Notes under the pieces: model-generated
Database searches by the model: none
Seen by the model: only the letters and a program-made list of their open reading frames with translations
What the model was told of the DNA's origin: nothing
From: Euzebyales bacterium
GTDB lineage: Bacteria; Actinomycetota; Nitriliruptoria; Euzebyales; JAHELV01
DNA: 62,238 nt
Assembly (NCBI GenBank): GCA_036374135.1
Contig: DASUUK010000067.1
Span: 1-62,238 of the forward strand
Direction: 5' to 3'
Position numbers and translations under genes: made by a program
Shown here: piece by piece, positions 21,216-27,201 of the stretch
Position numbering within the stretch: the stretch's first letter is position 1
Layout: each line of letters begins with the position of its first letter

Positions 21216-22253
21216 TCAGGCGTCGGCCATCGTGGTGCCCGACGACCGCAGCGCCTCGCAGGCCTCGACCACACGGGCGGCCATGTTCTCCTCCGCCTTC
21301 TTGCCCCACGTCCGCGGGTCGTAGGTCTTCTTGACGCCGACCTCACCGTCGACGCGCAGCACGCCGTCGTAGTTCTTGAACATGTGGTCGACGATCGGCC
21401 GTGTGAACGCGTACTGAGTGTCGGTGTCGATGTTCATCTTGACGACGCCGTAGTCGAGCGACTCGCGGATGTCATCCAACGACGACCCGGAACCGCCGTG
21501 GAAGACGAGGTCGAACGGCTTGCTGCCGGGCTCGAGGCTCAGCTCTTCGGAGACCCGGTCCTGGCCACGCTTCAGGATGTCCGGCCGCAGCGTGACGTTG
21601 CCCGGCTTGTACACGCCGTGGACGTTGCCGAAGGTGGCCGCCAGGATGTAGCGGCCGTTCTCGCCGGTGCCGAGCACCTCCGCCGTGCGCACGAAGTCGC
21701 TGTCGGCGGTGTAGAGCTTCTCGTTGATCTCAGCGACGACGCCGTCCTCCTCGCCGCCGACGACGCCGATCTCCATCTCCATGATCACGTTGGCCTTGGC
21801 ACACTCGGCCAGCAGGTCCTGCGCGATCTCGAGGTTCTCGTCCAGCGGCACGGCCGACCCGTCCCACATGTGTGACTGGAACAGCGGCAGGTCGCCGTTG
21901 GCGACGCGGTCCTGGCTGATCTTGACCAGCGGGCGCATGAACCCGTCCAGCTTGTCCTTGGGGCAGTGGTCGGTGTGCAGCGCGATCGTGACGTCGTAGT
22001 GGTCGGCGACGACGTGGGCGAACGTCGCCATCGCCACGCCACCGGTCGTCATGTCGTTGATCGTCGGACCCGAGAAGTACTGCGCACCGCCGGTGGACAC
22101 CTGGATGATGCCGTCGCTGCGCGCTTCGGCGAAGCCGCGGATCGCAGCGTTCAGCGTCTGCGACGACGTGACGTTGATGGCGGGGTACGCGAAGGCGCCG
22201 TCCTTGGCGCGGTCGAGCATCTCGGCGTACGTCTCTGGTGTGGCGATCGGCAT
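21216..22253 (-). CDS. fba: Fructose-bisphosphate aldolase, class II
   Basis: Zinc-dependent glycolytic/gluconeogenic aldolase, 345 aa. Zinc-ligand and active-site segments are intact: LHTDHCPKDKLDGFM, IGVVGGEEDGV, ATFGNVHGVYKPGNV, FHGGSGSS and MNIDTDTQ. The length and the long C-terminal KKTYDPRTWGKKAEENM fit the actinobacterial FbaA type. The frame stays open to 22352, but the protein starts at the ATG of MPIATPETYAEML, with GGACGGAG upstream. About 200 bases between its stop and the next gene hold only unclear coding-like fragments. Confidence 0.94.
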   Translation of the reverse strand: MPIATPETYAEMLDRAKDGAFAYPAINVTSSQTLNAAIRGFAEARSDGIIQVSTGGAQYFSGPTINDMTTGGVAMATFAHVVADHYDVTIALHTDHCPKDKLDGFMRPLVKISQDRVANGDLPLFQSHMWDGSAVPLDENLEIAQDLLAECAKANVIMEMEIGVVGGEEDGVVAEINEKLYTADSDFVRTAEVLGTGENGRYILAATFGNVHGVYKPGNVTLRPDILKRGQDRVSEELSLEPGSKPFDLVFHGGSGSSLDDIRESLDYGVVKMNIDTDTQYAFTRPIVDHMFKNYDGVLRVDGEVGVKKTYDPRTWGKKAEENMAARVVEACEALRSSGTTMADA

Positions 22254-22455
22254 GGCTGCTCCGTCCCTGAGTGACTGCGTGGATCGTATCCCCAGACCCC
22301 CGCCCTCCATCACCCCCTCTCCGTGGTGAACATCCGCGAGCCGCCGCATCACCGGCGCCCGAGCGGCCGGCGCGGAGTCGGCCGGCCACCGGCCGGGCGA
22401 TGAGTTCGGGCACGGCCGGACGTCAGCATCACCGCGACGACGAGAGGATCAGGCG

Positions 22456-22700
22456 ATGACATCGGACGGCAGTGCCGGCACACTCCTCGACCTCGCGCCG
22501 GCGGCGGACGAGCTGCGCCGTGTGGCCGCTGGCGTGGGGTCGGAGGACATGGAGGGTCGGACGCCATGCTCGGACTGGACGGTCCGGATGCTGGTCGGCC
22601 ACATCCTGGAGCTGGCGGCCGCATTCCGGGCCGCCGCCGACAAGCAGCCGCTCGACCCGGACGAGGCCGCCGCCGAGATCGACGATCGAGGCGCCTGGAC
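22456..22700 (+). pseudogene. Truncated MDMPI/DinB-like (TIGR03086-type) N-terminal fragment
   Basis: ATG at 22456 opens about 80 good residues. LDLAPAADELRRVAAGV is followed by GRTPCSDWTVRMLVGHILELAAAFRAA, which matches the N-terminal helix bundle of mycothiol-dependent maleylpyruvate isomerase-like proteins (TPCPGWTVRDLVAHV). Coding character ends near 22700, and the remaining two thirds of such a protein are absent. The frame stays open by chance and runs into the thrS gene, giving a spurious 563-aa fusion. The breakpoint abuts the thrS leader. Confidence 0.55.
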
Positions 22701-22738
22701 ACCTTCCCACTGCCCGTCGTGGTGGGTACGATGTGCAC

Positions 22739-22792
22739 ATGCAGCACCTGCGCGCGCTGACGACGACCACGGGAGCCGTCCCGGAGGTCTGA
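22739..22792 (+). CDS. Candidate thrS leader peptide with four consecutive Thr codons
   Basis: A 17-codon ORF, MQHLRALTTTTGAVPEV, lies 92 bases upstream of the short threonyl-tRNA synthetase start. Codons 8-11 are ACG ACG ACC ACG. The run is followed immediately by mutually exclusive hairpins (see the attenuator entry). A tract of cognate codons before an aminoacyl-tRNA synthetase is the standard signal for ribosome-mediated attenuation. An alternative overlapping ORF (MCTCSTCAR, start 22731) has a GGTGGG at better SD spacing; the SD for the Thr ORF is weak and 12 bases away. Confidence 0.6.
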   Translation: MQHLRALTTTTGAVPEV

Positions 22793-22839
22793 AATCGCGT
22801 TCGCGCACCGCACACCGCCCCGGGACCGGTCCCGGGGCG
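22770..22839 (+). promoter_or_regulatory. Attenuator: pause hairpin, antiterminator and terminator upstream of thrS
   Basis: Region 1:2 is CGGGA (22770-22774) with TCCCG (22779-22783), starting at the last Thr codon. Region 2, GTCCCGG (22778-22784), can instead pair with CCGGGAC (22820-22826). That breaks the 3:4 terminator, a perfect 24-base palindrome of CGCCCCGGGACC (22816-22827) and GGTCCCGGGGCG (22828-22839) followed by CTTCT. A ribosome stalled at the Thr codons would cover region 1 and favour 2:3, permitting transcription. This is read from sequence; no folding energy was computed. Confidence 0.6.
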
Positions 22840-22884
22840 CTTCTGCGTCCGGCACCGGTCCCGCCGCACACAAGGAGGAGACCG

Positions 22885-24147
22885 ATGTCCGTCGCAGACC
22901 CCGTCCGCCCGACAGATCCACCCGATCACCGTCGGCTGGGCCGCCAACTCGATCTGTTCGAATCGCACGAGTTGGTCGGCGCCGGACTGCCGCTGTGGTT
23001 GCCCGACGGCGCCGTCATCCGCTTCGAGCTCGAGCGGTTCGTCGTCGAGCTCGAACGCGTCGCCGGCTACCAGCGTGTGTTCAGCCCTGTGCTGGGCAAG
23101 CGCGAGCTGTTCGAGCGCTCCGGCCACTGGCAGCATTTCCGCGACGACATGTTCCCGCCGATGGACACCGGCGAGGAGCAGCTCGTCCTACGACCCAGCA
23201 ACTGCCCACACCACCTGCTGATGTACGGCGCGCGCCACCACAGCTTCCGCGAGCTGCCGGTGCGGTACGCCGAGCTGGGCACCATGTTCCGCTACGAGCG
23301 GTCCGGAGTGGTCGGTGGGCTCAGCCGCGTGCGGGCGATGACCCTCAGCGATGCCCACGTCTTCGTCGCCGCCGAGCAGGTCGGTGCCGAGGTGGCCCGG
23401 ATGCTGGAGCTGATCGACCACGCGTACGGCGTGCTCGGCATCGATCCGCATCGACTGCGCCTGTCGCTGCGCGGACCCGGTGGCAGCTACGTCGACGCGC
23501 CGCAGATGTGGGAGCGCGCCGAGGACGCCCTGCGGTCGGCACTGGCGTCGGCCGGCGCCCGGTGGGACGAGGCCGCGGACGAGGCCGCCTTCTACGGACC
23601 CAAGGTCGACATCCAGGTGGTCGACCCGCAGGGTCGTGAGGAGACCCTGTCCACCGTGCAGATCGACTTCCATCAGCCGGAGGCGTTCGACCTGTGGTTC
23701 CAGGCGTCGGACGGCAGCCGGCAACGCCCCGTCGTGATCCATCGCGCGTTGGTCTCGACCATGGAGCGGCTCGTCGCCCACCTGATCGAGCAGTACGCGG
23801 GGCGCTTCCCGGTGTGGCTCGCGCCGGTGCAGCTCGCGGTCGCGCCGGTCGACGCCGACCACGACGCCGCCGCGCAGTCCCTGGTCGACAGCGCGACCGG
23901 GGCGGGCCTGCGCGCGCGCATGGTCGACGCCCGCCACTCGCTCGGGGCGCGCGTGCGCGCGGCGCACGAGCAGGGTGTCCCGTTCGTCGGGATCATCGGC
24001 GACCGTGAGGTCGCCGACGGCAGCGTCAGCCTCCGTCGCCGCGACGGCGGTCAGCTGCCCGCGATGCCGGTGGCCGGGGCGGTCGGCTTGATCGCCGGGC
24101 TCGCGGCTGACCGGGCGCTGGGGCTCGACGCCGACACGCCGGGATGA
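22885..24147 (+). CDS. thrS: Short threonyl-tRNA synthetase without TGS and editing domains
   Basis: A class II aminoacyl-tRNA synthetase of 420 aa that should charge tRNA-Thr. It contains the catalytic core (about 15-310) and the anticodon-binding domain (about 312-415). The zinc ligands C107 (SNCPHH), H158 (SDAHVF) and H286 (IHRAL) are kept. So are motif 2 (GTMFRYERSG), the FYGPKVDI segment and motif 3 (HRALVSTMERL). Ordinary bacterial ThrRS is about 640-690 aa; the N-terminal TGS and editing domains are absent. AAGGAGGAG lies 5 bases before the ATG. It may be a second, stress-inducible copy, as short paralogues occur elsewhere. Confidence 0.88.
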   Translation: MSVADPVRPTDPPDHRRLGRQLDLFESHELVGAGLPLWLPDGAVIRFELERFVVELERVAGYQRVFSPVLGKRELFERSGHWQHFRDDMFPPMDTGEEQLVLRPSNCPHHLLMYGARHHSFRELPVRYAELGTMFRYERSGVVGGLSRVRAMTLSDAHVFVAAEQVGAEVARMLELIDHAYGVLGIDPHRLRLSLRGPGGSYVDAPQMWERAEDALRSALASAGARWDEAADEAAFYGPKVDIQVVDPQGREETLSTVQIDFHQPEAFDLWFQASDGSRQRPVVIHRALVSTMERLVAHLIEQYAGRFPVWLAPVQLAVAPVDADHDAAAQSLVDSATGAGLRARMVDARHSLGARVRAAHEQGVPFVGIIGDREVADGSVSLRRRDGGQLPAMPVAGAVGLIAGLAADRALGLDADTPG

Positions 24148-24326: not shown

Positions 24327-25799
24327 TCAGGGCTGAGCCGTGTCGAGGAACTCGTAGACCTCCGGCATGTCGACGCCCGGGAACGCCCCGACGGGCAGCG
24401 CGGCGAGCACGTGGCTGTGCGAGCTGGCCAGCGGGCGGGCGTGGCCGTCCCAGCGGTTGGCGAGCTCGGGCTGAGGTTCGCGGCAGCAGGGCTGCTCCGG
24501 GCACCCGGACGTCGTGCGCTGACGTGTCTCGCGACCCCGGAAGTGTTTCGCGTCGGCGAACCCGACCCCCACCGTGACGGCGTGCTGTGGCTGGCGGTCG
24601 GCCTCGCGGACGGTCACGCACCAGAACGTGCCGGCGGGCGTGTCGGTGTACTGGTGCCGCACGGTGCGCAGCTGCTCCGACTCGAAGACACGGCGGGTGC
24701 CCCACCGGCGGCACACCCGCTGCCCCTCGATCGCCCCGTCGGGGTCGGCCGGGAACGGTACGCCGTTGTTCTCGTACGCCTTCCAGATGACGCCCTCCTC
24801 ATCGGACCGCAGGAAGTGCGTCGCGATGTCCAGGTGACGGGTCGCCAGGTTCGTGAAGCGGTGGGCGGCCATCTCGTAGGACACGAAGAAGTGCTCGGCC
24901 AGGTCCTCGATGCACAGGTCGTGGGCGTCCTGGGCGCGCTGCAGGTACGGCACGGCGGACGACTCGGGCACCAGCAGCGCCCCGGCGAAGTAGTTCGCCT
25001 CGACACGCTGCTGCAGGAACTCGCCGAAGCTCGCGGGGTCGCCGTGACCGAGTGCGAAGTGCCCGAGGGACTGGGCGACGATGGAACGCGACAGGAGGGT
25101 CCCGACGCGTTCCCGCTCGTGGACGAACAGGCGGCCGTTGCGCAGGTCAGCCAACGACCGCAGCCCGCTCGGAAGTCGTGGCACGGTGATCACGCGGAAG
25201 CCGAAGTGCCCTGCGAGGTCGTCGATCACACGCGCGGTCAGGTGGCCGTCACCGGCGTAGTCGACGGCCAGCAGCGCGGCACGCGCCGAGTCCTCGATGT
25301 CGGCGAAGTAGTTGTCGCGTTCCCGCATCATCGCGCGGAGCTGCGCGTTGTGCTTGCGCGCCTCCTCGGGTGTCTGGGCGCGCACCGAACTGACCCGGCG
25401 CAGCTCGGAGAACAGCGCGACGACGTGCTCCAGGACGTCGTCGGTCAGCCTGCGTGAGATCGGGAAGGGTTCGAGGCCCAGCCGCTGGTACAGCGGGTCG
25501 TCCTGGGCCCGCTGCAGCGCGACCTCGAGCTCGGCGCGTCGCGACGGCGGGGCTGGATCCAGCAGATCACCGGGCGGGACGTCCAACGCGTCGGCGAGCG
25601 CCCCGATCAGCGACAGGTTGGGCTCGCGCTTGCCGTTCTCAACTCGCGACAGGTACGGCGCCCGCCTGCCGACCCGGTCCCCGAGCTCGCTCAGCGTCAA
25701 CCCGTGCTGCTGACGCAGGTGGCGCAGCCGTTGCCCGAACACCAGCGGGTCGAGTTGCGAACTTCCGACATACTCTGCGGTAGCCGCAAGATCTGCCAT
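24327..25799 (-). CDS. ramB: RamB-like regulator: XRE helix-turn-helix plus ScfR domains
   Basis: A 490-aa transcriptional regulator. The XRE domain is at 21-80 (LRHLRQQHGLTLSELGDRVG). The middle resembles the IrrE/M78 fold, but its HExxH motif is degenerate (QSLGHFALGH at 243-252), so it is not a protease. The C-terminal part is the short-chain fatty acyl-CoA regulator (ScfR) domain with CPEQPCC. In corynebacteria and mycobacteria RamB controls isocitrate lyase and other acetate genes. Here it is divergent from aceA across 109 bases, which strongly supports that role. Confidence 0.88.
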   Translation of the reverse strand: MADLAATAEYVGSSQLDPLVFGQRLRHLRQQHGLTLSELGDRVGRRAPYLSRVENGKREPNLSLIGALADALDVPPGDLLDPAPPSRRAELEVALQRAQDDPLYQRLGLEPFPISRRLTDDVLEHVVALFSELRRVSSVRAQTPEEARKHNAQLRAMMRERDNYFADIEDSARAALLAVDYAGDGHLTARVIDDLAGHFGFRVITVPRLPSGLRSLADLRNGRLFVHERERVGTLLSRSIVAQSLGHFALGHGDPASFGEFLQQRVEANYFAGALLVPESSAVPYLQRAQDAHDLCIEDLAEHFFVSYEMAAHRFTNLATRHLDIATHFLRSDEEGVIWKAYENNGVPFPADPDGAIEGQRVCRRWGTRRVFESEQLRTVRHQYTDTPAGTFWCVTVREADRQPQHAVTVGVGFADAKHFRGRETRQRTTSGCPEQPCCREPQPELANRWDGHARPLASSHSHVLAALPVGAFPGVDMPEVYEFLDTAQP

Positions 25800-25908
25800 A
25801 GTTGTTCCACTCCCGGCTTGGTATGTCAAGCATGACACAACAACACTATAGGTTGCCATGAACCCATGGGTCGCGTTCGCACGTGGCCCCTCAGCCGAGG
25901 AGCACTGC
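25800..25908. promoter_or_regulatory. ramB-aceA divergent control region
   Basis: This 109-base intergenic stretch is clearly AT-richer than its surroundings. It contains a 14-base palindrome TGTCA-AGCA-TGACA (25824-25837). Outer arms ATAGTTGTT (from about 25797) and AACAACACTATAG (25840-25852) form an imperfect inverted repeat around it. Either could be a RamB or other acetate-responsive operator. It does not match the corynebacterial RamB consensus in an obvious way. Promoter elements could not be fixed with confidence. Confidence 0.55.
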
Positions 25909-27201
25909 ATGGACGACATCGCACACTCCAGCGACGCCGACGCGCTGCGCGCGGAGTGGGAGACGGACCCGCGCTGGGCCGGCATCCACCGCGACTACGG
26001 GGCCACCGATGTCGTCGCGCTGCGTGGTTCGGTCCACGTCGAGCACAGTTTGGCCAGGGCCGGTGCGGAGCGGCTGCACGAGCTCCTCGCGGGCGACGAG
26101 CCGGTGCGCGCGCTCGGCGCAATGACCGGCGGCCAGGCCGTGCAGATGGTCAAGGCCGGCCTGCAGGCGATCTACCTGTCGGGCTGGCAGGTGGCAGGGG
26201 ACGCCAACCTGTCGGGCAACACCTACCCTGACCAGAGCCTGTATCCGGTCAACAGCGCACCCACGCTGGTGCGCCGCATCAACTCGGCGCTGCGTCGGGC
26301 CGACCAGATCGCCTCGCTCGAGGGAGGCGACGAGCGCCACTGGATGGCCCCGATCGTGGCTGACTGCGAGGCAGGGTTCGGCGGCGCGCTCAACGCCTAC
26401 GAGCTCACGCTGGGCATGATCGAAGCCGGCGCAGCGGGCGTGCACTTCGAGGACCAGCTCGCCAGCGAGAAGAAGTGCGGGCACATGGGCGGCAAGGTGC
26501 TCGTGCCGACCAGCCAGCATGTGCGCACACTGGCGGCCGCGCGACTGGCCGCCGACGTCGCGGGCGTGCCCACCTTCCTCCTGGCGCGGACCGACGCGGA
26601 GGCCGCGACCCTGCTGACCAGCGACGTCGACCCGCGCGACCGCGAGTTCACCACCGGTGTCCGGTCGCCGGAGGGCTTCTACGAGGTCCGCAACGGCATC
26701 GACGCCTGCATCGCCCGCGGCCTGGCCTACGCGCCCTACGCGGATCTGCTGTGGATGGAGACCGCCAAGCCCAACCTGGAGGAGGCGCGCAAGTTCGCCG
26801 ACGCCATCCACGCCGAGTTCCCCGACAAGCTGCTCGCGTACAACTGCTCACCGTCCTTCAACTGGTCCGCCCACCTGGACGCCGACGAGATCGCCACCTT
26901 CCAGGGCGACATCGCCGAGTTGGGCTTCCGGTTCCAGTTCGTGACGTTGGCCGGCTTCCACGCGCTCAACGCCTCGATGTTCGACCTCGCCCGCGGCTAC
27001 GCCACGGACCACATGTCGGCCTACGTGGCACTGCAGCAGCACGAGTTCGACCTCGAGCAGCACGGCTATACGGCGACGCGCCACCAGCGCGAGGTCGGCG
27101 CGAGCTACTTCGACCGCATCGCGCAGACCGTCAGCGGCGGCACCGCCTCGACGCTGGCCATGCACGGCTCGACCGAAGAGGACCAGTTCAGCGCGGCGTA
27201 G
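25909..27201 (+). CDS. aceA: Isocitrate lyase
   Basis: Glyoxylate-shunt enzyme that splits isocitrate to succinate and glyoxylate, letting cells grow on acetate and fatty acids. 430 aa, the usual short bacterial form. The active-site motif KKCGH has C190 ([11 protein letters not shown]). [37 protein letters not shown] and NCSPSFNW are all conserved. The ATG at 25909 has GAGGAG 7 bases upstream; the longer start at 25858 does not. No malate synthase gene is in the window. Divergent from ramB. Confidence 0.95.

Follow-up and report, generated by a model that had tools for sequence, protein, structure and literature searches.

We find that the short threonyl-tRNA synthetase (ThrRS) gene, thrS, of a Euzebyales bacterium is preceded by a conserved leader element, which probably (roughly 0.8 by our own estimate) acts as a ribosome-mediated transcription attenuator, coupling the level of charged tRNA-Thr to the expression of a backup ThrRS devoid of editing. 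The case is built on the anatomy of the leader, its conservation, the covariation of its helices, and their folding under simulated ribosome positions, from which we infer ribosome stalling, termination, and a response to threonine. The whole stretch of DNA that was analyzed, referred to here as the window, comprises 62,238 nucleotides (contig DASUUK010000067.1, forward strand) and belongs to a genome of 3.98 Mb in 115 contigs. An earlier note, made from the letters alone, had proposed leader-peptide attenuation of a short ThrRS. Comparison with relatives supports that proposal well, whereas two accompanying statements, namely that the Shine-Dalgarno (SD) sequence of the leader is a weak point and that no described case was known to the note, are corrected below.

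Anatomy of the thrS leader

The product of thrS contains only the Pfam domains tRNA-synt_2b and HGTP_anticodon, with neither a TGS domain nor an SAD editing domain, and the same genome encodes another ThrRS, which is of full length and carries the tRNA_SAD editing domain. The short form is patchily distributed in the class to which the window belongs, being found in nine of 66 genomes at E ≤ 1e-105. In a tree, the short forms stand apart from the correctly read long forms (rows L096 and L109, labeled "long", were translated in the wrong frame), and the branching order among the short forms is not resolved. In two genomes of the same order (L084 in G002 and L085 in G015), the short thrS has an in-frame stop, reflecting either decay or an assembly error. 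Borrelidin resistance of the short enzyme was also considered, but the motifs at the site (SGHW.H, FYGPK, and QIDF; site residues according to PMC4389257) are much as in other ThrRSs, and we therefore claim no resistance signature. A divergent gene for a class II fructose-bisphosphate aldolase (21216-22352, − strand) lies on the other side of the leader. Downstream of thrS, the gene for a regulator with a helix-turn-helix and an IrrE-like peptidase (24327-25985, − strand) overlaps an isocitrate lyase gene (25858-27201, + strand).

The leader and thrS comprise the following features:

22727-22732, + strand: -10 box TACGAT of a predicted leaderless promoter, with the transcription start site (TSS) at about 22739 (from the sequence)
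22739-22792, + strand: leader peptide ORF of 17 codons, MQHLRALTTTTGAVPEV followed by a stop (from the sequence and homologous leaders)
22760-22771, + strand: regulatory codons ACG ACG ACC ACG, i.e., Thr 8-11 (from the sequence)
22770-22774, + strand: segment 1, CGGGA, with its partner TCCCG at 22779-22783 (from the sequence and covariation)
22778-22784, + strand: segment 2, GTCCCGG, with segment 1 or CCGGGAC at 22820-22826 as its partner (from the sequence and covariation)
22816-22826, + strand: segment 3, left arm of the predicted terminator hairpin; its 22820-22826 part together with segment 2 makes up the antiterminator
22830-22839, + strand: segment 4, right arm of the predicted terminator hairpin (10 bp, -21.6 kcal/mol)
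22872-22880, + strand: strong SD of thrS, AAGGAGGAG, with the thrS ATG at 22885 (from the sequence)
22885-24147, + strand: thrS, short ThrRS of 420 codons (TIGR00418, 448.6 bits)

The Thr-codon ORF, the three pairings, the palindrome, and the thrS SD that the earlier note had described were all found base for base on the + strand of the window, the perfect 3:4 palindrome spanning 22816-22839. The distance from the leader start to thrS is 146 nt, and that from the leader stop to the hairpin is 23 nt. A U-run is absent 3' of the terminator hairpin in the window, where the tail reads CTTCTGCG. A direct repeat, ACCGGTCCCG, at 22825-22834 and 22854-22863 presents the terminator loop and right arm again 29 nt downstream, and segment 3 could therefore pair there too. 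An Rfam scan of the window returned one tRNA only, with no T-box and no match in the leader, and the leader element is without a matching Rfam family. Furthermore, positions 22456-22790 (+ strand) hold an in-frame remnant that resembles the N-terminus of the mycothiol-dependent maleylpyruvate isomerase family (TIGR03083, MDMPI_N); this remnant stays open into thrS, and the leader promoter lies inside it.

The weak SD of the Thr leader, which had been counted as a flaw, ceases to be one, because the position of the -10 box predicts a leaderless mRNA that is read from its 5' end. In the window, TACGAT ends 6 nt before the ATG at 22739. In 86 of 86 leaders, the distance from the end of a TAnnnT box to the ATG or GTG is 6-8 nt (7 nt in 61, 6 nt in 24, and 8 nt in one). 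This spacing is not fully independent, since the script that selected the starts favored those with a -10 box, but the starts so selected match the conserved M[KQ]R with which the peptides begin. Promoters of Streptomyces lividans have the form TAnnnT at a mean of 6.3 nt from the TSS, and the start of the S. lividans thrL leader has been mapped by RNA-seq as leaderless (PMC8079986). A rival reading is that the overlapping ORF MCTCSTCAR, which begins at 22731 and has the better SD spacing according to the earlier note, is the translated leader and senses Cys. We give this reading practically no chance: the ATG of this ORF (22731-22733) is part of the -10 box and precedes the expected TSS, so that it would not be included in the RNA, and the leaders of relatives have their Thr runs in the other frame, not in that of MCTCSTCAR.

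Taken by itself, a 17-codon ORF that includes four Thr codons is only mildly unusual. Comparable short ORFs with four Thr codons arose in five of 20 random first-order sequences with the length and dinucleotide make-up of the window, and the window itself has a second one on the opposite strand. Chance, in an intergenic region that is rich in GC, would thus have to be reckoned with for the ORF by itself, but for the element as a whole it is refuted almost to certainty, because the leaders and the pairings are conserved, in 86 leaders and with compensatory changes.

Conservation and covariation of the element

Conservation of the Thr codons and the pairing segments in relatives had been set beforehand as the test of the proposal, and both were found among these 86 leaders. 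The main comparison set consisted of the best 80 short-ThrRS loci from other actinobacteria (GTDB species genomes), and 77 of them have a small ORF with a Thr run upstream of the short ThrRS, the typical peptide being M[KQ]RA...TTTPESVPAR. As for the remaining three, L011 and L014 are at a contig edge, and L018 (Streptomyces sp. ms191) has lost the leader. The last of these keeps the terminator hairpin before its short thrS with the Thr leader gone, and provides a natural test case. Same-class relatives have a Thr leader (TTT or TTAT) in eight of eight cases, with a different peptide but an identical layout. The window's own peptide is divergent, being without the motif M[KQ]R..TTTPESVPAR, and shares its RNA architecture with Actinomycetes; the peptide motif is not needed for the RNA switch. 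The near invariance of the C-terminal TTTPESVPAR in Actinomycetes could suggest that the ORF encodes a small functional peptide and that the hairpins are merely a terminator. This is very improbable, however, as the residues that follow the Thr run differ outside Actinomycetes (TGAVPEV, TGLPPAVCRVR, and PERSGVLV), where the hairpin is kept by compensatory changes.

The Thr run consists of three codons in 82 of the 86 leaders, and ACG accounts for 251 of the 259 leader Thr codons. This bias arises in part because the last Thr codon overlaps the 1:2 hairpin. An argument based on rare codons was dropped, as the genes of the window use ACG as freely as ACC (46% and 47% of Thr codons, respectively).

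Pairing statistics were obtained from a MAFFT alignment. For the 1:2 and 3:4 helices, scored on 35 leaders, 87% of the cells are paired, and two-sided changes occur in 11 pairs, whereas shuffles give 5.5 and none of 500 reaches the observed count. Such counts are lowered because MAFFT set the terminator off by one column in some rows. Pairing falls to 35-55% when these helices are slid out of register. For the 2:3 helix, pairing amounts to 90% in register and to 27-69% after a slide of 1-3 positions. Its inner pair, 22779-22825, appears across relatives as UA, UG, CG, and AU in the tool alignment, and also as GC in L086, where the register was set by hand. The covariation score of 2:3 was reached by 21 of 500 shuffles, which is a weaker control than for 1:2 and 3:4, since the self-complementary CCGG core of 2:3 restricts covariation there. 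A first test of cognate versus swapped 2:3 arms, which were chosen automatically with one hairpin misassigned, gave a p value of 0.057. When the register was instead fixed manually at the CCGG core, the two letters of the inner pair matched in nine of nine same-class leaders, window included (shuffle p of 0.0002, or 0.002 with near relatives merged).

Two covariance models were used for searches. The model R2, which included the window in its training set, gave a single match to the element in the genome of the window (E 8e-9). The model R3 was made from other actinobacterial classes (Actinomycetes) only, with no same-class sequence, and gave its top match in the window at 22760-22847 (E 4.5e-5, 27 bits versus 13 for the runner-up). 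The window site was not listed in the whole-genome search with R3, and was probably lost in the fast first look. In a phylum survey of 396 genomes, a model match lies right upstream of the short ThrRS in 11 of the 12 genomes having one, and the leader of the twelfth, G008, was recognized by eye. Weak matches in seven other genomes were rejected as ordinary terminators with no Thr leader; the six of these that were read are gene ends or a simple hairpin, none of them with a Thr leader. Convincing matches elsewhere in the phylum were found only upstream of the editing-less short ThrRS among these 396 genomes, and the element was never matched at a full-length ThrRS in these model searches.

Proposed mechanism and alternatives

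The earlier note had suggested folding the leader with and without a ribosome on the Thr codons, and the outcome agrees with the switch that it envisaged. The free window RNA folds into 1:2 plus 3:4. When a ribosome occupies codon 8, 9, or 10 and the transcript extends to 22828, the best fold is instead 2:3, at -17.7 to -20.9 kcal/mol, and when the ribosome is at the leader stop, segment 2 is covered and 3:4 forms. These calculations assume a ribosome footprint of ~15 nt from the P site. At equilibrium, the 3:4 hairpin (-21.6 kcal/mol) is slightly stronger than 2:3 (-19.8 kcal/mol), and antitermination must therefore be kinetic. The leader has an antiterminator and a terminator that exclude each other, and its protector hairpin overlaps the Thr codons.

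In the mechanism that we propose, transcription would start at or beside the leader ATG, as suggested by the -10 box, and a ribosome would load onto the leaderless 5' end. With ample Thr-tRNA, the ribosome would reach the stop codon and cover segment 2, whereupon 3:4 would form and transcription would end. With scarce Thr-tRNA, it would stall at Thr codons 8-10, covering segment 1 and leaving segment 2 free to capture the emerging segment 3, so that the terminator would be blocked and thrS transcribed. If the leader were not translated at all, 1:2 and 3:4 would form and thrS would stay off. Intrinsic termination is an assumption here, because no U-run follows the hairpin, as it typically, though not universally, does in attenuators of this kind. 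Other actinobacterial leader attenuators reported in PMC8079986 are likewise without a U-run, and our claim is therefore that the element works like an attenuator, with termination inferred. Nor is a leader in an actinobacterium proof of attenuation, given that altering the candidate regulatory codons of S. coelicolor ilvB had no effect (cited in PMC1262725).

With no U-run present, translational or Rho-linked variants are also conceivable, in which the leader ORF and hairpins would act on thrS translation or via Rho rather than through intrinsic termination: a Thr-stalled ribosome would remodel the RNA, thereby opening the ribosome-binding site of thrS or masking Rho sites. Actinobacterial ileS T-boxes do act at translation initiation, and Rho has been proposed for cys leaders (PMC1262725). 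A possible hairpin bracketing the SD, seen in many members, also points in this direction. In the window, this secondary hairpin would pair CGGTC (22856-22860) with GACCG (22880-22884, + strand), and the arms at the same place in relatives include GTGGTC/GACCAC, GGGACC/GGTCCC, and GCGGTC/GACCGC. Cognate arms score 13.9 versus 12.3 for swapped ones, relatedness not being controlled in this comparison, and the hairpin varies in position; it could constitute a second, translational layer. However, the best-conserved piece of the element is the GC hairpin of 9-18 bp. Segment 2 pairs precisely with the left arm of this hairpin, and in the window more than 30 nt separate the end of its right arm from the SD. 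On balance, we consider it unlikely that control is exerted at translation or through Rho, and transcription attenuation remains the preferred reading.

A broader proposal, which we offer as tentative and somewhat doubtful, is that the attenuator forms part of a phylum-wide stress switch, in which Thr starvation or inhibition of the main ThrRS would bring in a proofreading-less ThrRS via the leaderless leader, perhaps with an additional layer at the thrS ribosome-binding site. If so, translation would be kept up at the cost of Ser-for-Thr errors, or the full-length ThrRS would edit in trans.

Relation to known attenuators

A textbook example of ribosome-mediated attenuation of an aminoacyl-tRNA synthetase operon is E. 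coli pheST with its pheM leader, which differs from the window in having Phe codons, an SD-led leader, a U-run terminator, and a single essential synthetase. The E. coli thrABC leader (Rfam RF00506) senses charged tRNA-Thr, as proposed for the window element, but it controls biosynthesis genes and senses both Thr and Ile. Other forms of ThrRS control are the E. coli thrS operator, which mediates translational repression by ThrRS, and the T-boxes of Gram-positive bacteria, which bind tRNA directly.

The earlier note knew of no described case for a short ThrRS, but one was reported in 2021, when thrL-thrS of S. lividans TK24 (SLIV_19412/19410), with the leader peptide MKRVRPFLETTPGFVPAR, was listed as an attenuator (PMC8079986). 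The S. lividans element resembles that of the window in its Thr leader, its hairpin without a U-run, and its leaderless start (mapped in S. lividans, predicted in the window), whereas its peptide sequence is different and has two Thr codons rather than four. We found the S. lividans peptide in two Streptomyces genomes that share the architecture, and the ORF downstream of it in L159 is a short ThrRS. The window fits the thrL layout of S. lividans type, comprising a Thr leader, a -10 box before the start, a GC hairpin, and ~100-230 nt to the short ThrRS. The 2021 paper concerns one species and calls termination unclear for lack of a U-run, and no alternative pairing is described in the text consulted (PMC8079986). 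The Streptomyces trpS and leuS attenuators are also comparable, as in them, too, a leader peptide controls the gene of an aminoacyl-tRNA synthetase by means of a terminator and an antiterminator (PMC1262725; PMC8079986), but the amino acid and the gene are others. The survey of 2005 that reported trpS and leuS found no conserved structure for threonine, and names the E. coli pheST attenuator (PMC1262725).

The window element is of the same kind as S. lividans thrL-thrS and hence not unprecedented, and the trpS, leuS, and pheST attenuators are older. Judging from the sequence comparisons, what appears to be new is the breadth, the covariation support, the strict tie to one paralogue, and the divergent member in another class. 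The evidence is broader and better than in the literature searched; a survey from 2010 on attenuators of aminoacyl-tRNA genes, by the group behind the 2005 survey (Lopatovskaya et al., doi 10.1134/S0026893310010164), may hold an earlier prediction. A single regulatory RNA, absent from Rfam, is tied to one synthetase paralogue across several actinobacterial classes. The duplicate editing-less ThrRS is predicted to be used when tRNA-Thr charging falls, including upon exposure to ThrRS-inhibiting antibiotics such as borrelidin. The element is found in 100 of 199 sampled Streptomyces species, nearly always in a single copy, and with about half of the species carrying it, common laboratory strains are suited to testing this prediction.
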